NCBI RefSeq assembly: GCF_011038975.1
Contig: NZ_JAAKEC010000014.1
Span: 1-64,000, forward strand
Length of the DNA stretch: 64,000 nucleotides
DNA from: Adlercreutzia sp. ZJ176
Lineage (GTDB): Bacteria > Actinomycetota > Coriobacteriia > Coriobacteriales > Eggerthellaceae
Direction of reading: 5' to 3'
The notes under the pieces were generated by a model that ran no database searches, was not told where the DNA came from, and saw nothing but the letters and a program-made list of their open reading frames with translations. The position numbers and the translations under genes are program-made. Positions 4,489 through 43,109 of this stretch are shown here, one piece after another (within the stretch, counting starts at the first letter, position 1; every line of letters starts with the position of its first letter).

Positions 4489-4594
4489 GTGCCGTGGGAT
4501 GCATCCCCCCTATGTCACTGATAATCGTTACGGGTCTCGCCCTTCCGCTTTTCCCGAGCCGGAAGGGCGGCAACCTACGTTGTGGGGACGGCAC
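4489..4594 (+). other. Candidate structured RNA, unidentified
   Basis: The purN to xdhC-like gap holds nested complementarity. GTGCCGT (4489-4495) pairs with ACGGCAC (4588-4594). Between them are the hairpin GGGATGCATCCC (4496-4507) and a stem GCCCTTCCG/CGGAAGGGC, followed by a GGCAACC segment. A -10-like TATAGT overlaps the 5' arm. I could not match it to a riboswitch class; the GGCAACC stretch recalls SAM-binding RNAs but the rest of that core is absent. Confidence 0.35.
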
Positions 4595-4627
4595 GGTGGC
4601 TCGCATCATGTCCGGCGCCTGACGGAT

Positions 4628-4724
4628 GTCATCCTGAGCGAGCGAAGCGAGTCGAAGGCTCTGGTTCCGGGCACGATGCGTCCGCATGCGCAGCTCCCTC
4701 GCAGCCAGATCCCTCGATCCCGCG
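4628..4724. repeat. TCATCCTGAGCG repeat, degenerate copy
   Basis: The left half matches the copy at 2561 (GTCATCCTGAGCGAGCGAAG, then AGTCGAAGG). The right half is decayed (GATCCCTCGATCCC) and lacks the terminal inverted repeat. It lies just upstream of the xdhC-like gene. Confidence 0.7.
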
Positions 4725-4767
4725 GCTCGACGCCCGTCCTTCATCGAACGAGAGAGAGAGGAACTCC

Positions 4768-8749: not shown

Positions 8750-10138
8750 TTACTTGCCAGGCGCGGCAGCCGACGTCTCGCCCGTGCTCGCCGTGGCGCT
8801 TCCCGAGGCTGCGACGGGGCAAGCTGCGGCGGCCGCTGCGCCCTCGGTCGCGCCCCCGGCCGCCTTCGGCTTGGAGGCCCAGGCCAGCATCAGGAACGCC
8901 ACCGCTATGACCGCCGCGGAGACGTACATGCCGGGGACGTAGCTGCCCGTGAGGTCATAGGCGAGGCCCCACAGCGGCGCGCCGATGGCCTGGCCGAGCA
9001 CGTTCGCCATGCTCACCAGTCCCCAGATGGCAGCGTAATCCCGCGGGCCGAACGCGACGCTGGTGACCATGGGCGCGAATACCGAGGTGTTGGCGTTGCC
9101 GATGGACATCAGGATGAGCGCCACGCAGATGACCGCGACGACGGGCGTGGCGGGCAGCAGGATGAACGAGACCAGGTACAGCGCCGAGCACAGAAACAGC
9201 GTCTTGACGAGGCCGAGCTTGTCGGCCACGATGCCGGCGCCCGAGCTGGTGAAGATGATGCCCGCGGAGATCACCGACATGAACACGCCGGCGGTGATGG
9301 CATCGAACCCGACGCTCACGAAGTACGCGGCCAGGTGCTGCGTGACGGTGACTGTGACGGCGAGGAGCAGGAAGGCCAAAAGGATCACCCACAGCTGTGG
9401 CATCTTGAGCGCCGTGGCGTAGGGCACGCCCGGCAGCTCGCCCGCGCTGCCCGAGCCAGCCTGCGCGCCAGCTTGCGCGCCGAAGGGCGCAAGCCCCAGC
9501 TCGGAGGGGTCTGAGCGCAGCAGGAGCAAGCCCACCGGCGTGGTGAGCGCGAACACGACGCAGCCGAGCAGAACGTATCCCGCCTGCCAGCCCAAAGACT
9601 CGATGACCGCGGGGAACACCAGGCTCAGCACCATGGCGACGATGCCGCCGCACGCGGCGGCCGCGCCCATCACGAACCCGCTCTTCTCGACGAACCACGT
9701 GTTCACGATAACCGGCACCACCGCGTAGCTGCAGCCGAAGAATCCGAGTCCGATCAGGCATCCCACCACGTAGAACATCGGCAGCGTCGCGCAGAGCGAC
9801 AGGGCTGCCATGGTGAGGCCCGTCCAGATGCCGCCGCATATCACGAACCGGCGCGTGCCGAAGCGCGCCACGAGCTTGCCGTAGACGGGCAGCGTGATGG
9901 TGCCCACGATGGTGATCAGGCTGAAGTACAGCGAGAACGTGGAGCGGTCGAACCCCAGGTCGCGCGTCACCGGATCCATGAAGAAGCCGAAGCTCACCGT
10001 GCCTGCGATCATGGCGCTCATGATGAGGCAGGCCGCGGCGGCGGTCTTCACGTATGGCGCGCTCATCCGCTGCTTCTCGCGCTTCGCGCCCGTGGCGTCT
10101 GCCATGTGCCCGCCACCTCGCTTTTCCTCGTTTCCCAT
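8750..10138 (-). CDS. MFS transporter, OFA-like
   Basis: A 462-aa major facilitator with about 12 hydrophobic segments, a long central loop after TM6 (SDPSELGLAPFGAQ...) and the inter-TM motif GKLVARFGTRR. It resembles the oxalate/formate antiporter branch, which moves organic anions. It diverges from the first molybdopterin oxidoreductase gene, so it is a candidate importer or exporter of that enzyme's substrate or product. ATG at 10138 follows GAGGAGGAGT. The C-terminus is Ala/Ser/Thr-rich. Substrate unknown. Confidence 0.85.
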   Translation of the reverse strand: MGNEEKRGGGHMADATGAKREKQRMSAPYVKTAAAACLIMSAMIAGTVSFGFFMDPVTRDLGFDRSTFSLYFSLITIVGTITLPVYGKLVARFGTRRFVICGGIWTGLTMAALSLCATLPMFYVVGCLIGLGFFGCSYAVVPVIVNTWFVEKSGFVMGAAAACGGIVAMVLSLVFPAVIESLGWQAGYVLLGCVVFALTTPVGLLLLRSDPSELGLAPFGAQAGAQAGSGSAGELPGVPYATALKMPQLWVILLAFLLLAVTVTVTQHLAAYFVSVGFDAITAGVFMSVISAGIIFTSSGAGIVADKLGLVKTLFLCSALYLVSFILLPATPVVAVICVALILMSIGNANTSVFAPMVTSVAFGPRDYAAIWGLVSMANVLGQAIGAPLWGLAYDLTGSYVPGMYVSAAVIAVAFLMLAWASKPKAAGGATEGAAAAAACPVAASGSATASTGETSAAAPGK

Positions 10139-10510: not shown

Positions 10511-12913
10511 ATGGAGTACAACAACGAGTACAACCTCGACCTGTACCCGAAGAAGCTTCACTGGAAGGAGGGCGACCTCACCGCGACGCGCACCACCATG
10601 TGGTCGGGCCCGGGCTGCCACGAGGGTTGCCAAGTCATCTTCTACACCGACGAGGACGGCAAGCTCGTCAAGGTCGAGGGCGACCCGAACTCGCCGTTCA
10701 ACCAGGGGCGCCTGTGCATGCGCTGCCTCGAGCTGCCTGAGCTCGTGAACCACGAGAGCCGCCTCAAGTACCCCATGAAGCGCGTCGGCGAGCGCGGCGA
10801 GGACAAGTGGGAGCGCATCAGCTGGGATGAGGCGTACGACATCATCTGCGAGAACGTGCGCAAGTTCCAGGAGACCGACGGACCTGAGTCCATCATCTCG
10901 ATGATCGGCACCGGCCGCAACGTCTCCCAGGTCATCGCGCACAACCAGTACGCCAACTTCGGCGGCCCGGACCTCACGCTGTGCTTCCTCTCGGGCGACT
11001 CCTGCATGCTGCCCCGCACGGCCCTGTGCTATGTGGTCATGGGCAACCAGTGGGTGGCTGACATGAGCCAGTTCCGCGAGACGCGCTACGAGGACGATCC
11101 CGAGTGGGTCGTGCCCGAGTGCATCGTGCTGTGGGGCACCAACCCCGTCGTGTGCAACTCCGACGCCTTCCTCGGCCACTGGATCGTGGAGTGCATGAAG
11201 CGCGGCTCCGAGCTGCTCTCCATCGACCCGCAGCTCACCTGGATCGGCAGCAAGGCCAAGTACTGGCTGCGCCTGCGCCCCGGCACCGACGCGGCCCTGG
11301 CGCTCGGCATGCTCAACATCATCATCAACGAGGACCTCTACGACCATGAGTTCGTCGAGAAGTGGTGCTTCGGCTTCGAGGACCTGCGCGAGCGCGTGCA
11401 GGAGTACCCGCCCGAGAAGGTCGCCGACATCTGCTGGATCGACAAGGACCTGCTCATCGAGGCGTCGCGCTGGTACGCCCAGGCCAAGCCGTCCACCATC
11501 CAGTGGGGCCTGGCCGTCGACATGTCGAAGATCGGCACGCAGACGGCGCTCGGCATCGCGTGTCTGGCCGGCATCACGGGCAACATCGACAACCCCGGCG
11601 GCAACATCCTGATCGACCAGGCCGGCGGCCTGGAGTTCGGCTACAACTCCGGCATCGAGTACCTCAAAGAGGGCATGGTGCAGAAGCGCCTGGGCAACTC
11701 CAAGTACAACTTGAAGAAGTACGGCTTCACGGCCAGCTCGCAGTCTGACTGCATCCTCGAGGCGTGCGAGACGGGCAAGGACGAGAACGGCAACCCGCGT
11801 CCGGTGAACATGCTGTGGATCCAGTCGTCCAACCCCATCACCAACATGGGCCAGGACGCCCCGCGCATCTACCGCGCCATGAAGAACGTGCCGTTCATCT
11901 GCGTGATCGACATGTTCAAGACCCCGTTTGCCGTGGCCTGCGCCGACCTCATCCTGCCGTGCGCCATGTCCAACGAGCGCGACTGCGTGCGCGTGTGGTT
12001 CGACCCGATCCGCTCGCTCACGAAGTGCGGCCAGTACTACGAGGCCAAGGAAGACGAGCAGATCATGATCGACCTCGGCCATCGCCTGAACCCCGACGTG
12101 TGGCCCGAGTGGGTGCAGACGCCGCGCGACTACATGAACTGGCGCATGCAGACCGCCCCGGCCTGCCGCTACGACAGCATGGAGGAGCTCGAGGAAGCGG
12201 GCGGCTGGCACTACCACGACTTCCGCTACTACAAGCACGAGAAGGGCCTGCTGCGCTCTGACGGCCAGCCCGGCTTCAACACGGTGACCGGCCTCTACGA
12301 GCTGTCCGTCACGCTGTTCGACGCCTGGGGCGACGACCCGCTGCCCTTCTACGAGGAGCCGCCCACGAGCCCCTACCGCACCCCGGAGCTCTGCGAGGAG
12401 TACCCGCTCGTGCTCACCACCGGCAAGCGCTCGTTCGAGTTCTTCCACTCCGAGTGGCGCCAGGCCGACACCACCTCGCGCGAGCTGCATCCGGTTCCGT
12501 ACTTCGACATCCACCCCGACACGGCTGCCAAGTACGGCGTGGCCGAGGGCCAGTGGGTCTGGATCGAGAACCAGATGGGCAAGTGCCGCCAGGTGGCGCG
12601 CTTCGACTCCACGCTCGACCCGCGCGTGATCTCCACCGAGCACGGCTGGTGGTTCCCCGAGCAGGAGGCTGCCGAGCCGAGCCTGTTCGGCGTGTTCAAC
12701 TGCAACCCGAACAACCTGATCCCGCAGTGCGAGAACGGTGAGTCCGGCTACGGCGCCCCCATCAAGTGCTCCATCGCCAAGGTCTACCCGTGCACGCCGG
12801 AGAACAGCGCGCCGGAGGACCAGCCGTCCTTCCAGGTGACCCGTGGCAGCGGCTACTCGCATGGCGAGTCCCATGCCACCGACACGCCGAGCTTCTACGA
12901 CATGCGGAAATAG
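10511..12913 (+). CDS. Molybdopterin oxidoreductase, dehydroxylase/acetylene-hydratase-like
   Basis: An 800-aa catalytic subunit of the DMSO-reductase superfamily. Family signatures are GRLCMRCLELPELVN, WERISWDEAYDII, MIGTGRNVSQ, NPVVCNSDAFLGHW, and the C-terminal dinucleotide-binding domain (LTTGKRSFEFFHSEWRQ, EHGWWFPEQ). There is no Tat signal peptide, so it should be cytoplasmic. Cluster-type Cys are only C36, C40, C69 and C72: the usual first Cys of CxxCxxxC is absent. C165 in GDSCMLPR sits where the Mo-ligating residue is expected (inference). The ferredoxin gene starts 15 bp after the stop. Similar cytoplasmic enzyme/ferredoxin/MFS loci in Gordonibacter reduce catechols, but the substrate here cannot be read from sequence. 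Confidence 0.88.
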   Translation: MEYNNEYNLDLYPKKLHWKEGDLTATRTTMWSGPGCHEGCQVIFYTDEDGKLVKVEGDPNSPFNQGRLCMRCLELPELVNHESRLKYPMKRVGERGEDKWERISWDEAYDIICENVRKFQETDGPESIISMIGTGRNVSQVIAHNQYANFGGPDLTLCFLSGDSCMLPRTALCYVVMGNQWVADMSQFRETRYEDDPEWVVPECIVLWGTNPVVCNSDAFLGHWIVECMKRGSELLSIDPQLTWIGSKAKYWLRLRPGTDAALALGMLNIIINEDLYDHEFVEKWCFGFEDLRERVQEYPPEKVADICWIDKDLLIEASRWYAQAKPSTIQWGLAVDMSKIGTQTALGIACLAGITGNIDNPGGNILIDQAGGLEFGYNSGIEYLKEGMVQKRLGNSKYNLKKYGFTASSQSDCILEACETGKDENGNPRPVNMLWIQSSNPITNMGQDAPRIYRAMKNVPFICVIDMFKTPFAVACADLILPCAMSNERDCVRVWFDPIRSLTKCGQYYEAKEDEQIMIDLGHRLNPDVWPEWVQTPRDYMNWRMQTAPACRYDSMEELEEAGGWHYHDFRYYKHEKGLLRSDGQPGFNTVTGLYELSVTLFDAWGDDPLPFYEEPPTSPYRTPELCEEYPLVLTTGKRSFEFFHSEWRQADTTSRELHPVPYFDIHPDTAAKYGVAEGQWVWIENQMGKCRQVARFDSTLDPRVISTEHGWWFPEQEAAEPSLFGVFNCNPNNLIPQCENGESGYGAPIKCSIAKVYPCTPENSAPEDQPSFQVTRGSGYSHGESHATDTPSFYDMRK

Positions 12914-12927
12914 AGGGGGTTAGAGAA

Positions 12928-13272
12928 ATGACGAGAGGCGAATACGGTCTTCTGATCGACTACCAGTACTGCTCCGGCTGCCACGCCTGCGAGGTGGCCT
13001 GCAAGAAGGAGCACGAGATGCCCAAGGGCGACTTCGGCATCAAGGTGCTCAAGGACGGCCCGCGCCAGTCCTCGGACGGCGTGTGGGAGTTCGACTACAT
13101 CCCGGTGCCCACGCACCTGTGCGATCTGTGCGCGATGCGCGTCGACATGGGGAAGCTCCCCACCTGCGTGCATCACTGCCAGGCCGGCGTCATGGTGTAC
13201 GGCCCGATCGAGGAGCTCGCCGCGAAGGCGAAGGCTGCCGCGAAGGACAAGATGGTCATCTTCGCGAAGTAG
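12928..13272 (+). CDS. Ferredoxin-type electron-transfer subunit, two [4Fe-4S]
   Basis: A 114-aa iron-sulfur protein and the likely redox partner of the preceding molybdoenzyme. Cluster ligands are C15xxC18xxC21xxxC25 (YCSGCHACEVACKKE) and a second set HLCDLC...LPTCVHHC. This is a shortened version of the DmsB/transhydroxylase small subunit. There is no signal peptide or membrane anchor. ATG at 12928 is preceded by GAGGGGGT. About 60% of positions look shared with the protein at 18304. Confidence 0.92.
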   Translation: MTRGEYGLLIDYQYCSGCHACEVACKKEHEMPKGDFGIKVLKDGPRQSSDGVWEFDYIPVPTHLCDLCAMRVDMGKLPTCVHHCQAGVMVYGPIEELAAKAKAAAKDKMVIFAK

Positions 13273-13298
13273 CGCGCAGGCGCTGATCTAAGGGAAAA

Positions 13299-13336
13299 GG
13301 CGGCTCGCGCGCTTGTAGGAAAGGGGGCGAGCCGCC
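13299..13336 (+). terminator. Hairpin between ferredoxin and MFS genes
   Basis: GGCGGCTCGC (13299-13308) pairs perfectly with GCGAGCCGCC (13327-13336). There is no T tract after it, so it may be an attenuating or RNA-protecting hairpin rather than a full stop. A -10-like TATAGT at 13420-13425 could restart transcription for the MFS gene. Confidence 0.5.
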
Positions 13337-13444
13337 ATGACCCCGCACGTTCCAGGCGAGGGCGGCTGGCTGATGAAACAGCCGGCTGTCCCTGTTTGGG
13401 GCTGCGGTCCATAGGGGATTATAGTATTTCTAGGAGGAAACAAA

Positions 13445-14719
13445 ATGGAGGAGAAGTTATACCCCAGACGCTGGGCTATCCTCATCGGCATGACCTTCAT
13501 CCTGGTCGCCATCCAGTTCAGCGTTATCTTGCCCGGTGGCGGTGCCATCCTGGTCATGCAGCAATACGGCATCGAGCCGATGATGTTCTCCATGATCATG
13601 ACCGCTCCGTATCTGACGGGCTTTCTGTTCGCCATTCCCGCGGGCGTCTTGGCTGACCGCATCGGCTTGAACAAGGTCCTGGTCACGGGCTTTCTGATCT
13701 GCCTCGTCGGCGTCGCCATCCGCATCTTCTCGGGCAGCGACTTCGCCATGCTGATGATCGGCACCATCGTCATGGGCTTCGCCCCGGCCGCCCTGAACGC
13801 CAACTCCGCGAAGCTTCTGCGCGTGTGGTTCCCGGGCAAGGCGAACTCGTTCGCCATGGGCGTGTACACCGCCGGCATGAGCTTCGGCGCCGCGCTCGCC
13901 CTGTTCTACGGCTCCCACATCGCCACCATCAACGAGGGCTGGATCTTCTCGACCGCCCTCGTCGCCATCGGCATCGTGATCTGGCTCCTTCTGTATCGCA
14001 AGCATCCTGACGGAGACGAGATCGACAAGGAGCCCATCGTCGAGTACCTGCGCGTCGTCCTCAAGAACAAGGACGTCTGGGGCATCTCGATCTTCGCGTT
14101 CCTCGTGTTCGGCGGCATGAGCAACCCGAACTCCAGCTTCATGGTCGCTGCCATCACCACGCTCGCCGGCGGCGATCCCGCTGTCGCTGCTGAGGCTGGC
14201 ACGCTGTCCACCCTCAACACCGTCATTGCGGCGACGCTGTCCATGATCCTGCCCGTCGTGTTCGTCGCGCGCTTCAAGAACATGCGCACGCCTGCGCTCA
14301 TCTGCTGCGCTGGCAGCGCCGTCTGCTTCGGCGTCCTGTACTTCGTGCCCTACGGCCCGATGACGTGGGTCCTCTACATCCTGCAGGCCGTGTTCTTCTG
14401 CTCGATGATGCCCATCGTCAAGATGCTGCCTGCGCTTCTGCCGAGCGTCAAGCGCGAGCACCTCGGCGTGGTCGGCGGCGTCCAGGCCACCTTCCAGAAC
14501 TTCGGCATGTTCCTGCTGGGGTCCTACGTGCTGTCCCCGCTCGTGATCGCCGTGACGGGCCAGACCGACGGACTGGTGTTCTACCAGGGCATCTACATCG
14601 GCATCGCCATCCTGTGCGTGCTGTCCTTCCTGAGCATGTTCCTGTTCAGCAACGTTCGCTCGAACGTGGCCGACAAGATCGCCGACGAGAAGGCCGCCGC
14701 CGAGGGCAAGGCCGCCTAA
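13445..14719 (+). CDS. MFS transporter
   Basis: A 424-aa major facilitator with 12 predicted membrane spans, the motif GVLADRIGLNK between TM2 and TM3, and a charged central loop (YRKHPDGDEIDKEPIVEY). The start is supported by AGGAGG 7 bp upstream of ATG 13445. It is encoded between the two molybdoenzyme/ferredoxin pairs in the same direction, so it is probably the substrate or product transporter of one of them. It is not closely similar to the minus-strand MFS at 8750. Substrate unknown. Confidence 0.88.
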   Translation: MEEKLYPRRWAILIGMTFILVAIQFSVILPGGGAILVMQQYGIEPMMFSMIMTAPYLTGFLFAIPAGVLADRIGLNKVLVTGFLICLVGVAIRIFSGSDFAMLMIGTIVMGFAPAALNANSAKLLRVWFPGKANSFAMGVYTAGMSFGAALALFYGSHIATINEGWIFSTALVAIGIVIWLLLYRKHPDGDEIDKEPIVEYLRVVLKNKDVWGISIFAFLVFGGMSNPNSSFMVAAITTLAGGDPAVAAEAGTLSTLNTVIAATLSMILPVVFVARFKNMRTPALICCAGSAVCFGVLYFVPYGPMTWVLYILQAVFFCSMMPIVKMLPALLPSVKREHLGVVGGVQATFQNFGMFLLGSYVLSPLVIAVTGQTDGLVFYQGIYIGIAILCVLSFLSMFLFSNVRSNVADKIADEKAAAEGKAA

Positions 14720-14754
14720 GCCGAGCACCTCACCGGGCTTGAGGCCCGAGACCG

Positions 14755-14781
14755 AGGCGCCCGGCTTCAGGGCGGGCGCCT
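14755..14781 (+). terminator. Hairpin after the MFS gene
   Basis: AGGCGCCCG (14755-14763) pairs with CGGGCGCCT (14773-14781), followed by TGTGG. A second hairpin, GAGGCGCAC (14838-14846) / GTGCGCCTC (14858-14866), precedes the small zinc-ribbon gene. Confidence 0.55.
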
Positions 14782-14886
14782 TGTGGTCGTCAAGCGCATC
14801 AGGGCTTCCCGCGCATGCGGGGGCCCTGCATGCGTCCGAGGCGCACATGCGAGGCACGTGCGCCTCTCGTTTCGAGAAAGAGGCAC

Positions 14887-15162
14887 ATGGGAAACTGTCA
14901 CTACTGCTTCAACTGCGGGAGGTGCCGCGGCGAGACGCCGCCAGGCGTGTTCGTGCGCCGGTGCCCGGCGTGCCGCCACGTGAACGAGCGCGGTGCGCGC
15001 GCATGCGAGGCGTGCGGATCGTCGCTCTACCTTGACCCGACGAAGGTCATGGGCCATCCGCGCCGCGACGCGGGCGCAGATGCGGCAGGCGTGCCGGAGG
15101 GGGGCGCATCCGCGGGAGCGGACGCGCCTGCCAGCGCGGGCGCCCAGCCTGCGTCAGCCTGA
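14887..15162 (+). CDS. Small Cys-rich zinc-ribbon protein
   Basis: A 91-aa protein with C4xxC7xxC10xxC13 (GNCHYCFNCGRCRG) and a second ribbon RRCPACRH...ACEACGSSL, then an Ala/Gly-rich tail. These are probably structural zinc or iron sites; no enzymatic motif is present. ATG at 14887 is supported by AAAGAGG. The Cys spacing near the start recalls the N-terminus of the trigger-factor-like protein at 19049 (CYVCNPLCGKC), suggesting a common theme in this island. Function unknown. Confidence 0.65.
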   Translation: MGNCHYCFNCGRCRGETPPGVFVRRCPACRHVNERGARACEACGSSLYLDPTKVMGHPRRDAGADAAGVPEGGASAGADAPASAGAQPASA

Positions 15163-15211
15163 GCGCGCAGCCCGACGGCGCCGCGCAGCCCGACGGCGCC
15201 GCGCCGCAAAA

Positions 15212-15243
15212 AAGCAGAGGCGGCCTTTTGCGCGCCTCTGCTT
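15212..15243 (+). terminator. Terminator after the zinc-ribbon gene
   Basis: AAGCAGAGGCG (15212-15222) pairs with CGCCTCTGCTT (15233-15243); an A-rich run precedes it. Just upstream, an 18-bp unit GCGCAGCCCGACGGCGCC occurs twice in tandem. On the other strand CGCCCGACCG/CGATCGGGCG (15291-15318) can terminate the minus-strand gene at 15337. Confidence 0.7.
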
Positions 15244-15336
15244 CGCGAGAAGGAGAACGACGTAGTTGAGGGCGGCGGCAAGGTGCCGCCCGCCCGACCG
15301 CCGAAGCGCGATCGGGCGAGGTGGGCTGCTGCCGCG

Positions 15337-15564
15337 CTACTGCCGCGGTGCGCCCGGCGCCTGAGGCGCGCCCGGCGTGCGGGGAGCGGGAGCCCCTGGC
15401 GCGCTCGGCGTGCCCGCGGAGGCGCCGCCCGGCGCGATGGACGACAGGTCAGCGCCGCAGCCCTTGCAGGTTTCCGGGAAGGGCATGTTGGGGATGACGG
15501 GGATGATCTTCCCGCATCCAGGGCATTTCTTGGGGCCGGACACTTCGGCTGGTCTGAAGCACAT
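15337..15564 (-). CDS. Small zinc-ribbon protein, minus strand
   Basis: A 75-aa protein: MCFRPAEVSGPKKCPGCGKIIP...ETCKGCGADLSSIAPGG, one four-Cys ribbon (CPGC and CKGC) followed by a Pro/Ala/Gly tail. Start ATG at 15564 on the minus strand follows GAGAGGA. It diverges from the second molybdoenzyme gene and would share its control region. No function can be assigned; a redox-sensing or chaperone accessory role is only a guess. Confidence 0.65.
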   Translation of the reverse strand: MCFRPAEVSGPKKCPGCGKIIPVIPNMPFPETCKGCGADLSSIAPGGASAGTPSAPGAPAPRTPGAPQAPGAPRQ

Positions 15565-15695
15565 GGTTGGATCCTCTCTTCGGGTTGTTCGTGAAGGGGC
15601 TGCTCTCCGCGCGACCGCGCTTGAGGAGCGCTCGGCGGCGAGCCCGACGGTTGAGGAGTCTAAGGGGCTTCGACGGCGGGGGATATGGCAAACCG

Positions 15696-15772
15696 TCCAA
15701 AAAACGGGGTGCTTATCTTGGAGGTTTTGGAAGCCGGGCGCCCGAGCGTGCCGCATGAAGAAGGCTCCAAAA
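15696..15772. promoter_or_regulatory. Candidate operator of the second molybdoenzyme operon
   Basis: Heptamers TCCAAAA (15696-15702), TTTTGGA (15725-15731) and TCCAAAA (15766-15772). The first pair is inverted and 22 bp apart, one helical turn more than the 12 bp seen at 10220-10245. The remaining 15565-15947 gap holds no gene and no clear -10 box. Confidence 0.45.
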
Positions 15773-15947
15773 AATGGGCGCGAGGGTTTGTAGGCTTCTC
15801 CATATGCCTTCTTCGGCCGGTTCCCTATGCTGGCGATGTTCAGGGCTCTCCCGCAGCCGGAGGCATTGCGAGCGAGGCGCTTTCAGGCGCTTGGAGACAA
15901 GCGGGAGATTCCCGATTCAAGAGAGAAAAGGAAGAGGAAGGTGGGTT

Positions 15948-18311
15948 ATGGAGCTTTTTGAGAAGAAGTTCAATCCCGAACTCTACAAGACTGACTTCCA
16001 TTGGAAGGAGGGGGACTACGACGTCTACCGCGTGTGCCACTGGTCGGCGCCGGGCTGTCACAACTCGTGCGGCATCCTGCTGTACGTGAAGGACGGCAAG
16101 CTCGAGCGCGTCGAGGGCGACCCGAACCAGCCGTACAACCGCGGGCGCCTGTGCATGCGCTGCCTCAACCTGCCTGAGGCGTGCAACGACCTGCTCAACC
16201 GCCTGAAGTGGCCGGTGAAGCGCGTCGGCGAGCGCGGCGAGAACCAGTGGGAGCGCATCAGCTGGGACGAGGCGTACGACATCATCGTCGAGAACGTGCG
16301 CCGCATCCAGAAGGAGTGGGGCCCCGAGGCCATCTGCGGCATGATCGGCACGGGCCGCAACGTGTGCTGGCAGAACCCGCTCATCTGCTACGCGGGCTTC
16401 GGCTCGCCCAACATGAGCTTCGGCTTCCTGTCGGGCGACTGCTGCATGGTTCCCCGCACGTCGCTGTCGTTCTGCGTGTGCGGCGACCTGCCCGTCGTCG
16501 ACGCGTCCCAGTTCAACGAGGAGCGCTGGGACCATCCCGAGTACGAGTACCCCGAGGTCGTGCTCGTGTGGGGCAACGACGTGATCAAGTCCAACGGCGA
16601 CGGCTTCTTGGGCCACTGGATCGTCGACATGATGACGCAGGCCAACACCAAGCTCATCGTGGTCGACCCCGACCTCACCTGGCTCGCGTCGCGCGCTGAC
16701 GTGTGGATCCAGCCGCGTCCGGGCGTCGACTCCGCCATCGCCATGGCCATGACCAACGTGATCATCGAGGAGGACCTCTACGACCACGACTTCGTCGAGA
16801 ACTGGACGTACGGCTTCGACGAGCTGGCCGCGCGCGTGAAGGACATGACCCCCGAGAAGGCCGCCGAGATCGCGTGGGTTGACGCCGAGGACATCCGCAA
16901 GGCTGCGCGCATGTTCGCCGCTGCCAAGCCGGGCGCCCTGCAGTGGGGCCTGACCACCGACATGCGCGTCAACGGCATCTCCGAGGCCCACTGCCTCATG
17001 TCGCTGAACGCCATCTGCGGCAACGTCGACCAGGCCGGCGGCAACTACCTCGCCCGCGAGGCCTACAGCATGAACCTCGCGTATCTGTGCGGCTACTTCG
17101 AGAACCTCGACGTCGACATGCGCGCCAAGCGCCTGGGCAACGACATCTCGCCGATGCACCAGTTCGGCCTGAGCTCCACCGCGGCGTCTGACGTGGTGCT
17201 CCAGGCGATCGAGTGCGGCGAGCCCTATCCGGTGAAGATGCTGTGGTTCCAGGGGTGCAACTCCATCGCCAACATGGCCGCCGAGGCTCCGCGCGTGTAC
17301 GAGGCCATCAAGACCACCGAGTTCAACGTGGTGGTTGACTACTGCATCACCCCGACGGCCGTCGCCTGCGCCGACATCGTGCTCCCGTGCGCCATGAGCC
17401 CCGAGCGCAACCAGCTGCGCACGTGGTGGACGCCGCTGCGCCAGTCGACGCGCGTGGTCGAGTACTACGAGTCCAAGACCGACGAGCAGATCATCCTCGA
17501 GCTGGGCAAGAGGCTGAACCCCGAGGCGTGGCCGTACGAGACCGACATCGACCTCCTGAACGCCCGCCTGAAGGAGGGCGACGTCCCCGAGGACTTCGCC
17601 GGCCTGCAGGAGATGGTCTACGACTGGGAGCCGCTCGAGTACCATCGCTACGAGAAGGGCCTGCTGCGCCCCGACGGCCAGCCCGGCTTCAACACCCCGA
17701 CGGGCATGATCGAGCTGTACTGCACGACGCTCGAGGCGTTCGGCAACGACCCGCTGCCGAGCTACGAGGAGCCGCCCGAGAGCCCGATCAGCACCCCGAA
17801 GCGCTTCGAGGAGTACCCGATCGTCCTCACCACGGGCCATCGCTCCTTCGAGTTCTTCCACTCCGAGCATCGCAACCAGAAGACGATGCGCGAGTTCCAT
17901 CCCAACCCGCGCGTGCGCATCCATCCCGAGACGGCCGCCAAGTACGGCATCGAGGACGGCCAGTGGGTGTGGATCGAGAACCAGCGCGGCCGCTGCCGTC
18001 AGATCGCCTGGGTGACCGAGGGCATGAAGCCCGGCTGCGCGAGCGCCGAGCACGGCTGGTGGTTCCCCGAGACCGAGGGCGCCGAGCCCAACCTGTTCGG
18101 CGTGTTCGACTCCAACATCAACAACCTCACGACGATGATGGTCGTCGGCGAGACGGGCTACGGCGCGCCCTACAAGGGCCTTCTGTGCAAGATCTACCCC
18201 TGCACGGAGGAGAACAGCAAGATCATGCCGTCTGAGCAGGTAACGCGCATGGGCGGCTGGGAGTACGACCGCGTTGAGAAGCTGGCCATGGGAGGTTATA
18301 AATATGAGTAA
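15948..18311 (+). CDS. Molybdopterin oxidoreductase, second paralogue
   Basis: A 787-aa catalytic subunit, a paralogue of the enzyme at 10511 (shared GRLCMRCLNLPEACN, WERISWDEAYDI, MIGTGRNVC, EEPPESPISTPKRFEEYPIVLTTG). There is no Tat signal. Cys for a cluster are C37, C41, C69 and C72, with C30 seven residues before C37 instead of three. The candidate Mo-ligand region reads GDCCMVPR. ATG at 15948 is preceded by GAAGAGGAAGG. The last 8 bp overlap its ferredoxin gene. It probably reduces or transhydroxylates an aromatic or similar small molecule; the exact reaction is unknown. Confidence 0.88.
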   Translation: MELFEKKFNPELYKTDFHWKEGDYDVYRVCHWSAPGCHNSCGILLYVKDGKLERVEGDPNQPYNRGRLCMRCLNLPEACNDLLNRLKWPVKRVGERGENQWERISWDEAYDIIVENVRRIQKEWGPEAICGMIGTGRNVCWQNPLICYAGFGSPNMSFGFLSGDCCMVPRTSLSFCVCGDLPVVDASQFNEERWDHPEYEYPEVVLVWGNDVIKSNGDGFLGHWIVDMMTQANTKLIVVDPDLTWLASRADVWIQPRPGVDSAIAMAMTNVIIEEDLYDHDFVENWTYGFDELAARVKDMTPEKAAEIAWVDAEDIRKAARMFAAAKPGALQWGLTTDMRVNGISEAHCLMSLNAICGNVDQAGGNYLAREAYSMNLAYLCGYFENLDVDMRAKRLGNDISPMHQFGLSSTAASDVVLQAIECGEPYPVKMLWFQGCNSIANMAAEAPRVYEAIKTTEFNVVVDYCITPTAVACADIVLPCAMSPERNQLRTWWTPLRQSTRVVEYYESKTDEQIILELGKRLNPEAWPYETDIDLLNARLKEGDVPEDFAGLQEMVYDWEPLEYHRYEKGLLRPDGQPGFNTPTGMIELYCTTLEAFGNDPLPSYEEPPESPISTPKRFEEYPIVLTTGHRSFEFFHSEHRNQKTMREFHPNPRVRIHPETAAKYGIEDGQWVWIENQRGRCRQIAWVTEGMKPGCASAEHGWWFPETEGAEPNLFGVFDSNINNLTTMMVVGETGYGAPYKGLLCKIYPCTEENSKIMPSEQVTRMGGWEYDRVEKLAMGGYKYE

Positions 18312-18642
18312 CTACGGACTTTTCATCAACTACGAGTACTGCACGGGCTGCCATACGTGCGAGGTGGCCTGCAAGAAGGCGCTCAACCTCCCCGAAGGGC
18401 AGCATGGCATCGTGGTGTTCGAGGACGGTCCGCGCAAGAACGTCAACGGCACGTGGGAGCTCACCTACCTGCCGCTGCCCACGCACCTGTGCGACTTCTG
18501 CGCCGACCGCGTAGCGGAGGGGCGCCTCCCCAACTGCGTGCACCACTGCCAGTCCGGCATCATGGTGTACGACACGCTTGAGAACCTGGCGAAGCTGGCC
18601 GAGAAGCACCCGCGCAGCGTCATCTACAACGCGCAGGCCTAA
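18304..18642 (+). CDS. Ferredoxin-type electron-transfer subunit
   Basis: A 112-aa partner of the preceding enzyme, with ligands C15xxCxxCxxxC (YCTGCHTCEVACKKA) and HLCDFC...LPNCVHHC. GGAGG lies 8 bp before ATG 18304, which overlaps the molybdoenzyme stop, so the pair is translationally coupled. A 15-bp perfect hairpin (18674-18688/18699-18713) follows, without a T tract, probably a processing or stability element before the next gene. Confidence 0.92.
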   Translation: MSNYGLFINYEYCTGCHTCEVACKKALNLPEGQHGIVVFEDGPRKNVNGTWELTYLPLPTHLCDFCADRVAEGRLPNCVHHCQSGIMVYDTLENLAKLAEKHPRSVIYNAQA

Positions 18643-18748
18643 GCCTCGCCGAACGCTGACGCAGCGGCGTCATGCGGCGCTGCCGGGACGCAGGGCTCTC
18701 CCGGCAGCGCCGCGCATCTGATAACGCTCAATGAGAAGGAGAACTGAG

Positions 18749-19009
18749 ATGGCAGGTAAGGAACCTTTCCCCACGTTGGTCGTCAACGAAGTGTGGGCTC
18801 GCTGCGGCGGTTGCTGCGAGTGCGAGGACGCGTCCCACGGCCATGACGAGAAGTGCGGGCAGCGCTGCATCCTCCCCATGCAGGGAGGTCCGAACATCGG
18901 CGGGTGGGAGGCCATCGCGCGCGATCCGGAGGGGCCGCTCACAGCCGACAACTGCATGATCGTGTGCGCGCCGTGCTTCAAGAAGATGCGCGACGCAGGG
19001 CGCATCTAG
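18749..19009 (+). CDS. Small Cys-rich HNH-like protein
   Basis: An 86-aa protein with a CGGCCEC motif near residue 19, CGQRC, and LTADNCMIVCAPCFKKMRDAG at the end. The Cys pairs plus the N-x-x-x-x-C-x-x-C tail look like the zinc frame of an HNH nuclease fold, but the catalytic His residues are missing, so nuclease activity is unlikely. AGAAGGAGAACTGAG precedes the ATG. It lies between a molybdoenzyme/ferredoxin pair and a chaperone-like gene and may be an accessory or metal-delivery protein (inference). Confidence 0.6.
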   Translation: MAGKEPFPTLVVNEVWARCGGCCECEDASHGHDEKCGQRCILPMQGGPNIGGWEAIARDPEGPLTADNCMIVCAPCFKKMRDAGRI

Positions 19010-19048
19010 CACCGGGATTCAAGTCAAGGATTGAGAAAGGGGTCTGCC

Positions 19049-20476
19049 ATGCCGTGCTACGTGTGCAACCCGCTGTGCGGCAAGTGCGGGCCCCGACGTG
19101 AGATGCCTGCCGCGCTCAAGGGCAGGTACATGGTGGGGAAGAGGAAGAAGAAGGCCATGGACTACCAGCTTTGCGCGGCCGATTCCACCGAGCTGCAGAG
19201 AACGTACGAGGTGAGCCTCACGGCTGAGGAGACGAAGCGCCTCGTCGACGAGATCTACGCGTTTCTGGCCATGCAGGCGGGCATCGAGTACCTCGCCGAC
19301 CAGAGCGCCGAGGCGCTCGCCGGGCGCTTCGGCGACGATCTGGGCAAGCGCGTGGCGAGCTGCCTCGCGAACCAGTGCGCCGACAAGATCATCGCCGCGG
19401 AAGGGCTCGCCGCCGCGCTCGAGCCCGTGGTGCGCGACGCCTCCGAGATAGGGGAGGGCGCGCCCTTCACCTGCAAGGTGCTGATCCACGTCAAGCCCGA
19501 GCTGGAGCTCTCCTCGTACGAGCCGGTGTCTCTTCCCATCCCCGCGTTCACCGTCTCGCCCGAGATGGTCGAGCGGAATGTGCGGGCGATCGTCGAGGAC
19601 CGCGCGCGCTACGTGGACGACGAGTCGGCCGCGCGCGTCTCCCCGAGCGTGAAGGCCGTCATATCGCTGCGCACCGAGAAGTGCGGCATGGAGGTCCAGC
19701 CGCTCACCTTCGAGAGCATCGTCTACCAGATGGGCAGCGGGATCCTCCCGCAGCAGATTGACGACGCCCTTGCGGGCATGGAGCCGGGCGAGACGAAGGA
19801 GTTCTCGTTCACGGTCACGAGCAAGAACTTCTTGGGGCTTGACGTCGAGGAGACGATGGACTCGACGCTGAGCGTGCTGCGCATCGTGAGGAAGGAGACC
19901 CCCGAGCTCACTGACGCGTGGGTGAAGGGCAACGTCCCCGGCGCCCATGACGTGGAGGGCTTCTACGAGCTCGTCAGGGGCAACCTGTCGGTGCGCGCGC
20001 GGGCCGACTACGATCGGCTCAAGGACGAGGCCGCTGCGAGCGCCCTCGCCGAGCGCCTCCCCGCGTTCGAGCTTCCGGATCTGTACTACGACTACGCGCG
20101 GGCGGGGCTTCTGCAGAACGTCTCGGCCGCCCTTGCGCGCAAGGGCATGAGCGAGGAGGAGTTCTACCTCGCCCAAGGTGTCACGAGCAGCCAGTTCATG
20201 ATCCAGATGAGCGCCCGCGCGCGCGAGGTGCTGCGCCAGGGCCTCGCGCTTGACGCGCTCGCGCGCCACGAGGGCTTCGAGGTCGGGGAGGCCGACCTGG
20301 ACCGCGCGGCCCGCGCCATATCGCCCCGGGATCACACGGGGGCGCGCAAGATGCTCGAGATGAACGGGCGCACCTACCAGCTGCGCGAGATGGCCCTGCG
20401 CCAGAAGGCGCGCGCGGTCCTCGCCGAGCGGGCCGTGGTGCAAGGGGTCGAGGCTCCGGGCACCACGGGCGCTTAG
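19049..20476 (+). CDS. Trigger-factor-like chaperone with N-terminal Cys knuckle
   Basis: A 475-aa protein. After MPCYVCNPLCGKCGPRR (C3xxC6xxxC10xxC13) it follows trigger-factor architecture: an N-domain, FTCKVLIHVKPELEL, an FKBP-like region (MGSGILPQQIDDALAGMEPGETKEFSF), PELTDAWVKG, and a helical C-domain. The ribosome-docking GFRKGKxP signature is not present at the expected place (AGIEYLADQSAEALAG instead). It is therefore likely a dedicated chaperone for the molybdoenzymes rather than the housekeeping factor; the knuckle may bind zinc. ATG at 19049 follows GAAAGGGG. Confidence 0.75.
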   Translation: MPCYVCNPLCGKCGPRREMPAALKGRYMVGKRKKKAMDYQLCAADSTELQRTYEVSLTAEETKRLVDEIYAFLAMQAGIEYLADQSAEALAGRFGDDLGKRVASCLANQCADKIIAAEGLAAALEPVVRDASEIGEGAPFTCKVLIHVKPELELSSYEPVSLPIPAFTVSPEMVERNVRAIVEDRARYVDDESAARVSPSVKAVISLRTEKCGMEVQPLTFESIVYQMGSGILPQQIDDALAGMEPGETKEFSFTVTSKNFLGLDVEETMDSTLSVLRIVRKETPELTDAWVKGNVPGAHDVEGFYELVRGNLSVRARADYDRLKDEAAASALAERLPAFELPDLYYDYARAGLLQNVSAALARKGMSEEEFYLAQGVTSSQFMIQMSARAREVLRQGLALDALARHEGFEVGEADLDRAARAISPRDHTGARKMLEMNGRTYQLREMALRQKARAVLAERAVVQGVEAPGTTGA

Positions 20477-20553: not shown

Positions 20554-22167
20554 TCAGGCGAAGAGGTCCTCGAAGCTGCACCCGACGATCTTCCGGAACA
20601 GCTCGGGGTCGTGGATGAGCTTCGAGTACAGGATCGAGAAGTCGAAGAGCAAACGGTCGCGCGACCAGTTCTCGTCGAAGTCAAGCCCGAAGCGGTTCTC
20701 GATCTTGCCGATGCGGTAGAGCACGGTGTTGCGGTGCATGTGCAGCTTCTCGGCCACGACGGTCGCCTTGCGCTCGTAGTGGATGTAGGTGGCGAGGATG
20801 CGCGCGTCGTCCCCGCCGTTCGCCGCGTTCTCGGCGATGATCTTGTCGAGGATGGTGTGCGAGAACGAGAAGTCGCGCAGGGCGGGGCTCATCTCGTCGG
20901 AGTCGACGACCAGAAAGCGCAGGGCCTCCTCGAAGGTGTAGCACAGCTTGCCGCGCTCTTCGCCCGACATGGTGAACCAGTAGGCGAGGTTGATGTTGTC
21001 CTTGTACTTCGAGACCAGCTGGATCTGCTGGTAGGCGAACTTGACGTTCGTGATCTCGTCGAACACCTGGGAGACGGCGACGAACCCCTTCGCGGGATCG
21101 CAGTGGGGCAGAAGCTGCTCTTCGATGGCGCGGTTCGACAGGCTGTTGTCGAGGCCCTTGGAGTAGAGGAGCAGGTAGAGGCGGTCGTCGTAGACGACCG
21201 TGGCGCTGCGCCCCCCGTTGATCCGCTTGAGCGTGAGCGCCAGGTCGCTGAGGTTCTCGCGCGGAACGCCCTCGCGCGGCTCGAAGCAGAGGAGGCGGAA
21301 CTCCGCGTCAAGGGGGATCCTGATGTTCGAGGCGTAGTCGTTCAGCTGCCCCCGGCTGACGTAGCGGCCGTTGACGAGGTCGTCGAAGAGCGCGAAGAAC
21401 GAGTAGCGAACGGGGTCGAAGCGCCCGGTCTGCAGGTCGGCCCTGCTCGAGAGCGACGTTGCCAGCATGTCGAAGAGGTCGCGCTGCCCGCGCGAGGGCT
21501 CTCTCTCGTAAAGCGCCATGAGGAGGAGCTGGCTGCCCTTCTCCTCGCCGATGGTGGCGTTCTCTATGACGAGGTCGCTCGGCCCGTTCTTGAACGAGAC
21601 GGGGGAGCGGCGGATCATCCTGACGCTGTTGACGATCTCGCGCTCTCGGCAGAGGAAGTCCTTGCAGAGGGGCGAGCCGATGTTCGTCAGGGCCTTTGCG
21701 AGGGGCTGCGCGTCGTTGCCGTAGAGCAGAAGCGGTGCGCCGATGATGCGCGCGCTCTTGTTGAGCATCTGCCTGAACCCGTCAGGCGACGTCGTGACGT
21801 GGGCGAGCTCGCTCTGCCACGACTGGATGAGCAGGAAGTAGTTCTGCAGCTTTTGGAGCAGGCCCGTCGGCGCGCTGCTCTGCTCGACGACGATCATCGG
21901 GCTGCCGAGCTCTCCGAGGCCCTCGAGGGCGGGGGCGTCTGCCATGACGATCAGGAGCGCGCCGGGGTAGAGCGCTGCGGCCTGAGGCGCCGCCTTCGCG
22001 CTGCATACGAACAGCATGTCGCGCTCGGGTATGACGCCCTTCTCCCAGTGGACGGACGACACCCACTTGAAGCGCGCGGTCTTCCGCTCGGGCTCTGAGA
22101 TGATGGTGCAGGGCCTGAGCGCGTCGATGATCATGTGATAGCTGATATAGGGAATGTCAACAGCCAT
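20554..22167 (-). CDS. PucR/CdaR-type transcriptional regulator
   Basis: A 537-aa regulator. The C-terminus carries the PucR helix-turn-helix: HYERKATVVAEKLHMHRNTVLYRIGKIENRFGLDF. The long N-terminal and middle regions have no recognisable sensor domain. ATG at 22167 (MAVDIPYISYH) is preferred over 22200 because GAGGGGGA lies just upstream and a minus-strand TATAAT at 22204-22199 puts the start of transcription between them. It is adjacent and antiparallel to the molybdoenzyme operon, so it is a likely substrate-responsive regulator of it. Confidence 0.85.
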   Translation of the reverse strand: MAVDIPYISYHMIIDALRPCTIISEPERKTARFKWVSSVHWEKGVIPERDMLFVCSAKAAPQAAALYPGALLIVMADAPALEGLGELGSPMIVVEQSSAPTGLLQKLQNYFLLIQSWQSELAHVTTSPDGFRQMLNKSARIIGAPLLLYGNDAQPLAKALTNIGSPLCKDFLCREREIVNSVRMIRRSPVSFKNGPSDLVIENATIGEEKGSQLLLMALYEREPSRGQRDLFDMLATSLSSRADLQTGRFDPVRYSFFALFDDLVNGRYVSRGQLNDYASNIRIPLDAEFRLLCFEPREGVPRENLSDLALTLKRINGGRSATVVYDDRLYLLLYSKGLDNSLSNRAIEEQLLPHCDPAKGFVAVSQVFDEITNVKFAYQQIQLVSKYKDNINLAYWFTMSGEERGKLCYTFEEALRFLVVDSDEMSPALRDFSFSHTILDKIIAENAANGGDDARILATYIHYERKATVVAEKLHMHRNTVLYRIGKIENRFGLDFDENWSRDRLLFDFSILYSKLIHDPELFRKIVGCSFEDLFA

Positions 22168-22265
22168 GCTCGTCCCCCTCGATCTGCCGACTGAACCCAT
22201 TATAGCGAGCAGGCCCTGCCCTTCGAGGCGTTCGGCGGCTGTACGTTCCTCCGAAAATCAGCCTC

Positions 22266-24146
22266 CTATTTTGTTAAATCCTCCATTGTGGTCGGCTGGG
22301 GGTTGGACGCCTGCGCCCCAGCGCCTTTGCGGCGATCCTCGGGGCGCTCTCCCGTCGCGGCCTCCCCGAAGATCTGGCTGAGGGACTCGTTGCTCAGGGT
22401 GAGGAAGAGGTACTTGAAGCTCAGGAGCATCCAGTCGCGGGCCGTCTTGCTCGACAAGTCGAAGCAGAAGCGCCTCTGGATCTTCTCGACGTGGTAGAGC
22501 ACGGTGTTGCGGTGCATGTGCATGCGCTGCGCCACGGCGGTGGCGTTGCGCTCGCTCTGCAGGTAGAACCACATGAGCGCAAGGTGGTTCGTGCCGTTCT
22601 CGAGGTCTTCCTGGTGCAGGATGGACGCGATGGAGCACTGGAACGCGAACTGGACGAAGCGCTGGTCATGGGCGGTGGGGTCGATCAGGTAGTACAGCAG
22701 CGCGTCCTCGAACAAATACGCGCCGCGGGCGTGCGAGCTGGTGTCGGCGAACTGCTCCTGCAGGATGGCGCCGCGGAACCCCAGCGCGATCTGCGTCTGC
22801 CGGAAGGCGAGGTCGAGGTCAGTGATGTTCTTGAACACCGACGAGACGCCGCTGATCACGTCGTAGGGCTCGAACACCTTGCGGCGCAGCTCGTCTAGCG
22901 TGCGCGAGTGCGCGAGCTTGCCGTCGGCGCCGCCGCTGTACAGCAGTGCCAGCACGTGGCTCTGGTGGGGGAAGCAGCGCACGTTGCCGTCGTTGAGCGT
23001 GGAGGCGGCCTTCGCCACCAGCCGTGCGCGCTTGGGGTCAGCTCCCTCGTCGACGTCGCACGCCACCAGCTTGAAGTGCCCCGCGTCGGCGAGCCCCGCC
23101 ATGTCCATCTGGGCGCTCACGTACGCCTCGCTGAGCGGCGCGTGCTCGAGCAGCTTGCTGAAGAAGAAGTACGACGGCGTGTTGAGCTGCGCCTCGTGGC
23201 TCCAGATCTTCTCGCACAAAGGCGTCATGCGCCTCACCAGCGTGAGGAACAAGTCCCGCATGCCCTCGGTGTCGGGCATGGCGTTGCACGCCATGGAGAT
23301 GGAGCCGAAGTAGGAGTGGTTGATGTGGATGGGGTGCGACACGCGGTCGAACGGCGTGATCTCGGACGCGGCGCGCGTGTAGAAGGTCTTCTCCGGCAGG
23401 CGAAAGCGCTTCTCGGCGATGGTGTCCGGGGTGAGGCAGCCGTTGTCGATGATGGTGCGATGCAGCTCGTCGGGCGGCTCGACGGCGGTGGTGCGCGCGA
23501 TCACGTTGAAGTTGTTGTCCGAGACGAAGATGAAGTTGCCGATCACGGACGCGCTCGCGTCGAGCATGTCGGTGAGCGTGCCTTGGCGCAGCATGATGCG
23601 CTCAAGATCGCTCTCCCAGATGAGGATGCGGACGAAGAACGACTGCAGCAGGAAGAGCAAATGGGTCAGGCTGCAGCGCCGCTCGAGCACGATCGTGCGT
23701 TCGCGGTAGGGCGCGAAGTCCGCGAGGCGGCTTGCGTCGTCGAGCTGCAAAAGGGCGAACGCCGCCGGGCGCTTTGCGAGGAGCTCGCGTGCGCTGGCCG
23801 CGTCGCACACGAAGAGCAGCTGGGACTCGCTGACGCGCGCGGGCGCGGCGCAGGGGGAGCACGCGGGGCAGGTGGGGCATGTGGCGGCCGGGGTCTCTTC
23901 GGCGCTCTGAGCGCATGCGATCGGCGCGTACCAGCGGAACGTGCGTCGGCTTGCCGTGGGCGCCGCGAGCATGCCGGAGCTTGCGAGGCGGTCGACGAGC
24001 ATGGCGGCAGTCACGTGCGGCAGGCTGTTCTCGCTGGTGGGAGGCTGGCAGAGCAGGTCCTCGAGGGCTTGCTCGCCTGCAGCGCACCTCGCGTTTCCTT
24101 CTGCGCGCCCCATGCCTCGATCTGCGTCCTCGCCCTTGCTCCCCAT
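22266..24146 (-). CDS. PucR/CdaR-type transcriptional regulator, second
   Basis: A 626-aa paralogue-like regulator with HTH QSERNATAVAQRMHMHRNTVLYHVEKIQRRFCFDL near residue 550 and the same overall plan as the gene downstream. The N-terminal part includes a Cys cluster (TCPTCPACSPCAAP, four Cys in 10 residues), which could be redox- or metal-sensitive. Start ATG at 24146 follows GGAGAGGGAAG; a minus-strand TAGAAT box lies at 24221-24216. Two such regulators beside two enzyme operons suggest one each. Confidence 0.83.
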   Translation of the reverse strand: MGSKGEDADRGMGRAEGNARCAAGEQALEDLLCQPPTSENSLPHVTAAMLVDRLASSGMLAAPTASRRTFRWYAPIACAQSAEETPAATCPTCPACSPCAAPARVSESQLLFVCDAASARELLAKRPAAFALLQLDDASRLADFAPYRERTIVLERRCSLTHLLFLLQSFFVRILIWESDLERIMLRQGTLTDMLDASASVIGNFIFVSDNNFNVIARTTAVEPPDELHRTIIDNGCLTPDTIAEKRFRLPEKTFYTRAASEITPFDRVSHPIHINHSYFGSISMACNAMPDTEGMRDLFLTLVRRMTPLCEKIWSHEAQLNTPSYFFFSKLLEHAPLSEAYVSAQMDMAGLADAGHFKLVACDVDEGADPKRARLVAKAASTLNDGNVRCFPHQSHVLALLYSGGADGKLAHSRTLDELRRKVFEPYDVISGVSSVFKNITDLDLAFRQTQIALGFRGAILQEQFADTSSHARGAYLFEDALLYYLIDPTAHDQRFVQFAFQCSIASILHQEDLENGTNHLALMWFYLQSERNATAVAQRMHMHRNTVLYHVEKIQRRFCFDLSSKTARDWMLLSFKYLFLTLSNESLSQIFGEAATGERPEDRRKGAGAQASNPQPTTMEDLTK

Positions 24147-43097: not shown

Positions 43098-43109
43098 TCG
43101 GATGGTGAG

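Follow-up and report, generated by a model that had tools for sequence, protein, structure and literature searches.

Catechol dehydroxylases shape the transformation of neurotransmitters and dietary polyphenols by gut bacteria, and research on them has suffered from the difficulty of obtaining active enzyme outside their own bacterial group. For Dadh of E. lenta, deletion of dadhB, dadR or dadhD-H, a set that includes the TorD-like dadhF, abolished activity; more than 20 constructs for Dadh were unsuccessful, and in E. coli the working Gordonibacter constructs gave no activity (PMC11887054). That accessory genes, a chaperone among them, are essential for an E. lenta-type catechol dehydroxylase is already known (PMC11887054). 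Here we describe a locus of Adlercreutzia sp. ZJ176 (Eggerthellaceae) in which two molybdenum-bis(pyranopterin guanine dinucleotide) (Mo-bisPGD) enzymes, Mo1 and Mo2, lie together, the second of them beside a trigger-factor-like protein, TFL, and several small Cys-rich proteins. The window, that is, the whole stretch analyzed, comprises positions 1 to 64,000 of contig NZ_JAAKEC010000014.1; its genome (G000) spans 2.7 Mb in 49 contigs and was compared with 138 genomes of the family and 396 of the class.

The closest described loci are those of the Gordonibacter type, namely Gp Hcdh and Eadh1/2/3 of the eam cluster, with which the window locus shares a signal-less Mo-enzyme of ~770-800 aa and a small 4Fe-4S partner (PMC11585353, PMC12771579). 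The eam cluster has major facilitator superfamily (MFS) neighbors, as does our locus, whereas the Gordonibacter-type loci have LuxR regulators and ours has PucR regulators (PMC12771579). The Dadh, Hcdh and Cadh loci of E. lenta encode enzymes of the DMSO-reductase superfamily that need neighboring accessory genes (PMC11887054, PMC7028382), as we propose here. However, the chaperone of the Dadh cluster is TorD-like and that of the window is trigger-factor-like (PMC11887054), and E. lenta Hcdh is a Tat-exported protein of 1193 aa with a membrane anchor, unlike the cytoplasmic Mo1 and Mo2 of 800 and 787 aa (PMC11585353). The role that we propose for TFL, a dedicated chaperone encoded beside a Mo-bisPGD enzyme, is that of the TorD/DmsD family (PF02613); TFL, however, is a homologue of trigger factor and has no PF02613 match.

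Our best explanation, to which we give an even chance, is that the locus holds two modules for the reduction of aromatic compounds, and that Mo2 has a dedicated, TorD-independent maturation kit that would include chaperone action by TFL. The original prediction for this DNA, made from its letters, had held that the chaperone and Cys-rich proteins were not described as part of such systems; this was overstated, given that TorD-like dadhF and other accessory genes are essential for Dadh (PMC11887054). What is new is the kind of accessory gene, derived from trigger factor and from zinc-ribbon families, and its tie to the cytoplasmic enzyme type. The terms "trigger factor" and "zinc" have no match in the main texts, figures and supplements aside, of PMC11585353, PMC12771579 and PMC11887054, and a search of the open-licence literature, which leaves most subscription journals outside, gave no paper that connects dehydroxylase-type loci with trigger factor or with zinc ribbons of these kinds.

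Two separable Mo-enzyme modules

The locus consists of two separable modules. The first runs, on the plus strand, from Mo1 (10511-12913; PF00384, PF01568 and PF04879 above cut-off) through its small 4Fe-4S partner Fd1 (12928-13272; Pfam Fer4 profiles below cut-off, a DmsB-like match at E 1.8e-13) and the transporter MFS2 (13445-14719; PF07690, E 2.5e-38) to CysA, a small Cys-knuckle zinc-ribbon protein (14887-15162). CysA probably belongs here because a gene for a related knuckle protein in G065 sits ~2 kb downstream of Mo1. The second module, also on the plus strand, contains Mo2 (15948-18311; the same three domains above cut-off), Fd2 (18304-18642; PF13187 above cut-off), another small 4Fe-4S partner whose gene shares its first 8 bases with the end of Mo2, CysB (18749-19009; 86 aa with 9 Cys), a 36-codon remnant of the Cys-knuckle gene CysC (19049-19156) and TFL (19157-20476; 439 aa, PF05697 and PF05698 above cut-off). 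CysD (15337-15564), of the family that we call MCFRP, is divergent from Mo2 on the minus strand. The two cytoplasmic oxidoreductase/ferredoxin pairs and three small Cys-rich proteins (CysA, CysB, CysD) of the original prediction are thus present. The gap between Fd2 and CysB (18643-18748) can form a hairpin of about -50 kcal/mol (z -2.35), which we set aside as a conserved part since the same gap has only ~46 bases in G039.

The distribution of the two modules separates them. Searches with Mo1 and Mo2 scored the 7 best candidates in most genomes, and the Mo1, Fd1 and Mo2 query proteins began one, one and two codons ahead of the start. Mo2 occurs at 92-96% identity in 5 of the 138 family genomes (G000, G039, G073, G074 and G086), the next best among the matches listed being 63%. 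Full-length CysB is found in the same five genomes and in 5 of 396 of the class; its four orthologues are 80-86% identical and every one lies beside Mo2, with a single weak match of 31 residues in a sixth genome, G132. The closest relatives of TFL (56-61%) are also in the five Mo2 genomes, all others listed being at most 36%, so that Mo2, Fd2, CysB and TFL are jointly present in 5 of 138. Mo1 orthologues at 84-90% occur in nine other genomes, including all five of genus g26, where the Mo2 match never exceeds 59%; in G038, Mo1 is split into two pieces. G086 carries Mo2 but only a 70% relative of Mo1, and in G073 and G074 the two enzymes are on different contigs. These separate distributions rule out one self-contained island, as had been proposed for this DNA.

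In the lineages that carry it, Mo2 looks old and under very strong constraint. Where Mo2 residues are conserved, their third codon positions match at 61-79% between the window genome and the other four carriers; over three of the same genome pairs, the canonical trigger factor gene tig shows 55-59% protein identity and a match of 58-68% at third positions. Because the synonymous sites of Mo2 are about as diverged as those of tig, the linkage of the module appears old, and recent horizontal spread, which might have explained amino acid identity of 92-96% across genera, is unlikely. TFL itself is 57-61% identical between carriers, which is the pace of tig. The linkage has been kept in four genera despite altered spacing; in G086, for instance, two MFS genes are inserted between Mo2 and the TFL orthologue, and TFL lies 3.8 kb from the nearest Mo-enzyme gene.

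Mo1 and Mo2 fit the cytoplasmic, two-subunit catechol dehydroxylases of the Gordonibacter type (PMC11585353, PMC12771579). This likeness rests on their domain set and length, a small 4Fe-4S protein gene that follows each enzyme, the lack of a Tat motif and the replacement of the acetylene hydratase residues; the neighboring MFS gene is a further trait of that type. The Tat motif is absent from both proteins by a pattern scan and inspection of the N-termini (no signal-peptide predictor was used), and no membrane-anchor gene is among their neighbors in the window, which led us to reject an E. lenta-type dehydroxylase (Dadh, Hcdh or Cadh). In a PDB search, the closest solved structure to both is acetylene hydratase (2e7z; E 2.4e-76 for Mo1), of which we take Asp13 to be the catalytic residue and Cys141 the tungsten ligand. 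Asp13 aligns with His in Mo1 and in Mo2 (pairwise alignments only); Cys141 faces Val in Mo1 by the pairwise alignment, and in Mo2 a Val was read by eye, the column being unaligned. His and Val at these sites argue against acetylene hydratase. Gut-derived aromatics are plausible substrates.

A predicted trigger-factor fold beside Mo2

In its AlphaFold2 model (predicted local distance difference test score, pLDDT, 88.6), TFL has the three-domain fold of trigger factor, with N, peptidyl-prolyl isomerase-like and C domains in the trigger-factor arrangement. The model matches trigger factor 1w26 over its whole length (Foldseek E 6.5e-22, template modeling score 0.42) and also 3gty (VIA Z 15.5), the root-mean-square deviation of 10.0 over 376 residues in the latter case indicating shifted domains. 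The GFRxG(xxP) motif is the ribosome-docking site of trigger factor. It is found, as GFRxG, in 21 of 93 full-length trigger-factor rows, 13 of them tig and 8 a lineage that we call C16-like, and is absent from all five TFL proteins, from every row of a second trigger-factor paralogue and from all 31 trigger-factor genes adjacent to Mo-enzyme genes (the alignment covers the N-domain in 19 of these and starts farther on in the other 12). The missing motif and a score of 122.9 bits on the NCBIfam tig model, below its cut-off of 180.2, speak against TFL being a ribosome-associated tig despite its fold. Nor is it a TorD-type chaperone: a profile search found PF02613 neither in TFL nor elsewhere on the window contig. 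FastTree suggested that TFL branches from the universal second paralogue; we do not retain this placement, the sister of TFL not being resolved in the model tree. The trees spread the Mo-adjacent trigger-factor genes over several deep clades.

In a 2024 survey, trigger factor was single-copy in 97.4% of the genomes that bear it, and extra copies mostly lacked the docking motif (PMC11559001). TFL resembles these N-degenerate paralogues in retaining the trigger-factor fold and in having lost the motif as an extra copy; unlike them, the copies described here lie beside specific metabolic enzymes, and genomes hold up to 9 Trigger_C loci (2-9 in each of 24 genomes, selected mostly for many trigger-factor copies). 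Neither "Coriobacteri" nor "Eggerthella" nor "molybd" occurs in the main text of PMC11559001. If our reading is true, leaving the ribosome to assist individual metabolic enzymes would be an unusual fate for a mostly single-copy chaperone.

The original prediction also gave the chaperone a Cys knuckle of its own. The trigger-factor part of that claim holds by domains and fold, and the knuckle proves to be something else. In 4 of 4 relatives, CysC is a separate Cys-rich gene of 92-102 aa between CysB and TFL; it overlaps TFL by 20 nt in G073 and G074 and ends 42-47 nt upstream of it in G039 and G086. The window retains only the first part of CysC, which reads in frame into TFL. Since CysC is separate in the relatives and TFL has its own start, ATG 19157, preceded by a purine-rich ribosome site, the fused knuckle is a local remnant, and we rejected it as a trait of the chaperone.

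Two other trigger-factor lineages are worth recording. The C16-like lineage, which keeps GFRxG (L044, 14976-17481, in G000:C16, and G010, G028, G049, G055, G073, G074 and G075), has a shorter second trigger-factor gene alongside in 7 of 8 genomes, and some genomes thus have two trigger factors with a docking motif. The motif-less second paralogue (L046, L049, L052, L053 and others) was seen in 29 stretches, and none of its 28 eligible copies lies within 1.6 kb of a Mo-enzyme gene.

Helper genes near Mo-enzyme genes

The helper genes are not random neighbors of Mo-enzyme genes. The small Cys-rich proteins are of two main kinds, a knuckle kind (CysA, CysC), in which C-x2-C-x(2-3)-C-x2-C precedes two CxxC pairs, and the MCFRP kind (CysD), with an MCFRP start, one zinc ribbon and a long Ala-Pro-Gly-rich tail. 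Both are caught by profile A1, for which some of the source proteins came from G065 and G086 and whose eight invariant Cys were imposed by the selection pattern. The rows used were 39 of 40 in G065 (one opposite-strand overlap was dropped), 15 of 20 in G000 and 32 of 55 in G086 (E <= 1e-5). In G065, 22 of the 25 matches that reach E <= 1e-5 are no more than 3 kb away from a Mo-enzyme gene (16.3% expected, P 6e-15): 16 of the 19 that start in the first 6 model positions, taken as knuckle-type, and 6 of the 6 that start at position 13 or later, taken as MCFRP-type. The corresponding figures for G086 are 23 of 32 (19.5% expected, P 2e-10), made up of 15 of 23 early and 8 of 9 late starts, and 5 of 7 matches are this close in the window genome. 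G052, whose best Mo2 match reaches only E 1.5e-81, has only weak and partial knuckle matches (best 1.5e-4, with 150 of 238 candidates scored).

Among stretches chosen around trigger-factor and Mo-enzyme genes, 45 MCFRP proteins were found in 91 loci that bear a Mo-enzyme gene (1.73 Mb) and none in 44 loci without one (0.77 Mb). The regular expression asked only for MC[FLY]xP, and the uniform MCFRP start is therefore a result; 21 of the 22 rows in the corresponding alignment, A4, are MCFRP proteins, the other (L075) being a wrong row with bad coordinates. A CysD-like gene is divergent from Mo2 in three of the five carriers, the window genome, G039 and G086. Independence of the accessory genes from Mo-enzyme genes, which the original prediction had named as the point to examine, was not what we observed: CysB and TFL each accompany Mo2 in 5 of 5 genomes, and all 45 MCFRP genes lie within 6.8 kb of a Mo-enzyme gene. 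The combined metabolic and maturation module that it envisaged stands as a gene association, and the function would be as proposed below.

CysB gave no match in Pfam and NCBIfam searches, and its structure model (pLDDT 52.8) was too poor for a fold search. CysA has no NCBIfam match at 0.01, and the three MCFRP proteins tested fall below every curated cut-off shown. The notion that no curated model fits the knuckle proteins is nonetheless wrong, because 2 of the 20 that were re-tested score above the Zn_ribbon_3 cut-off.

For trigger factor, we considered 114 genes in the same stretches, 105 of them eligible because a Mo-enzyme gene lies within 2 kb or because 2 kb of sequence is available to either side. 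A Mo-enzyme gene is no farther than 1.6 kb from 4 of 5 TFL genes, 18 of 35 other full-length paralogues and 9 of 17 short ones (31 of 57 in total), against 0 of 13 for tig, 0 of 28 for the second paralogue clade and 0 of 7 for the C16-like genes. The Mo-enzyme gene is on the same strand in 29 of these 31 cases, and 0 of the 28 TF-adjacent Mo-enzymes with a visible N-terminus carry a Tat motif by our pattern. Same-strand orders of Mo-enzyme, ferredoxin, Cys protein of either kind and trigger factor recur, also in the extended form Mo-Fd-Cys-TF-Cys-Mo-Fd (e.g. L085, L100, L107, L132). In G065, a single contig, 4 of 7 trigger-factor genes lie within 1 kb of a Mo-enzyme gene (11.2% expected, P 0.004). 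In the window genome, for which 41 molybdopterin-binding domains were counted, a TorD gene lies 3.4 kb or less from five Mo-enzyme genes, four of which carry a Tat motif.

Proposed roles and alternatives

We infer chaperone action on Mo2, a role of the Cys proteins, the substrate class and the mode of regulation from what is directly established, namely gene content, conservation, co-localization, the predicted TFL fold and the absent docking motif and Tat signals. The locus would hold two co-located, separately inherited modules through which small aromatics, once imported, are metabolized reductively. Import of the substrate would be the task of an MFS protein, and a cytoplasmic Mo-bisPGD enzyme resembling Gordonibacter-type catechol dehydroxylases would reduce it with its small 4Fe-4S partner, the PucR regulators turning the gene set on. 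TFL, as a trigger factor that presumably no longer works at the ribosome, would hold and fold apo-Mo2 in the cytosol until the cofactor and the Fe-S subunit are in place, a role on Mo2 that would parallel that of TorD-type chaperones on Tat-exported relatives. CysB, CysC and CysD, as zinc-ribbon or Cys4 proteins, could assist as adaptors or as factors that handle metal or Fe-S clusters. More generally, and tentatively enough that we put it at somewhat below an even chance, the Eggerthellaceae may have a hitherto undescribed system that matures their cytoplasmic Mo-bisPGD enzymes, in which trigger-factor paralogues, MCFRP and knuckle proteins and, for Mo2, CysB replace TorD; the paralogues would be ribosome-independent, recruited several times, and would serve enzymes that are never exported. 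The candidate accessory genes for the cytoplasmic type are directly usable for co-expression.

Several points weigh against a dedicated maturation kit. The case for it comes from genes and predicted structure. TFL evolves as fast as tig and Mo2 is almost frozen, where tight one-to-one co-evolution would predict otherwise. CysC is truncated in the window genome itself. No CysD turned up next to Mo2 in G073, and the G074 stretch ends too soon at that place. In G086, for which only the C-domain positions of trigger-factor genes were used, these genes show no significant link to Mo-enzyme genes at 2 or 4 kb; one appears only at 6 kb, where it holds for 7 of 9 (31.5% expected, P 0.006). In the window genome only 2 of 13 Mo-enzyme genes of the same class (over 800 bits with our model) have a trigger-factor gene within 1.6 kb, and a kit in cis is therefore no general requirement. 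The choice of the 24 genomes used for trigger-factor counts also belongs here.

An alternative we regard as unlikely is that TFL alone is a chaperone and the small Cys proteins are redox carriers, rubrerythrin-type FeCys4 domains that feed the ferredoxin subunit and the Mo-enzyme. Their C-x2-C-x(10-16)-C-x2-C spacing does resemble the rubredoxin domain of rubrerythrin, and the genes adjoin reductases that require electrons. Of 23 knuckle proteins, 5 match the rubrerythrin-like model of NCBIfam (best E 4.6e-6), as does one MCFRP protein at 18.6 bits, below the cut-off of 32; CysD scores 11.7. However, generic zinc-ribbon models match more members (Zn_ribbon_3, 10 of 23, with the cut-off passed in the 2 of 20 noted above), each enzyme already has a 4Fe-4S partner, and nothing comparable to the start and tail of the MCFRP proteins is known from rubredoxins.

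It is also conceivable, with a distinctly low probability in our estimate, that the helper genes are passengers of duplication hot spots, trigger-factor and zinc-ribbon genes being carried along without enzyme-specific function as Mo-enzyme arrays expand. Mo-enzyme genes are many (83 in G065, 99 in G086) and often clustered, second-paralogue and C16-like copies occur without them, and the trigger-factor link in G086 is weak. Yet the linkage is old by synonymous sites and has been kept in four genera with changed spacing, the trigger-factor lineages on the Mo-enzyme side form several deep clades, and for the Cys families, random positions give a far lower background. Many nucleic-acid and protease adaptors contain zinc ribbons, and the small proteins could accordingly act as regulators or adaptors of the Mo operon in transcription, translation or proteolysis, with TFL as a general holdase for high expression. 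The general, divergent roles of N-degenerate trigger-factor homologues in Myxococcus (PMC11559001) would agree with this. We consider it very improbable: dedicated PucR regulators are already there, and TFL orthologues are found only with Mo2.

The regulators PucR1 (20554-22200) and PucR2 (22266-24146) are on the minus strand, both with PF13556 (HTH_30) above cut-off, and PucR1 is convergent with TFL in the window, G039 and G086. A further transporter gene, MFS1 (8750-10138, minus strand; PF07690, E 3.8e-37), is a neighbor whose membership in a module is uncertain. Two PucR-type regulators and two MFS transporters had been predicted between 10511 and 20476; all four exist, but MFS1 and both PucR genes lie outside that range. 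Upstream of the locus, on the plus strand, a gene at 4525-5754 encodes an XdhC Rossmann-domain protein of the molybdenum hydroxylase maturation type, near purine-type genes for a GATase/phosphoribosyltransferase (830-2539) and an AIR synthase-like protein (2684-3877). The gene at 6956-8134 (plus strand) encodes an AICARFT/IMPCHase domain protein that matches only Pfam positions 77-310 of 311. Farther downstream, a single open frame of 966 codons (43098-45995, plus strand) combines a GNAT acetyltransferase domain with TsaD and is apparently a fusion.

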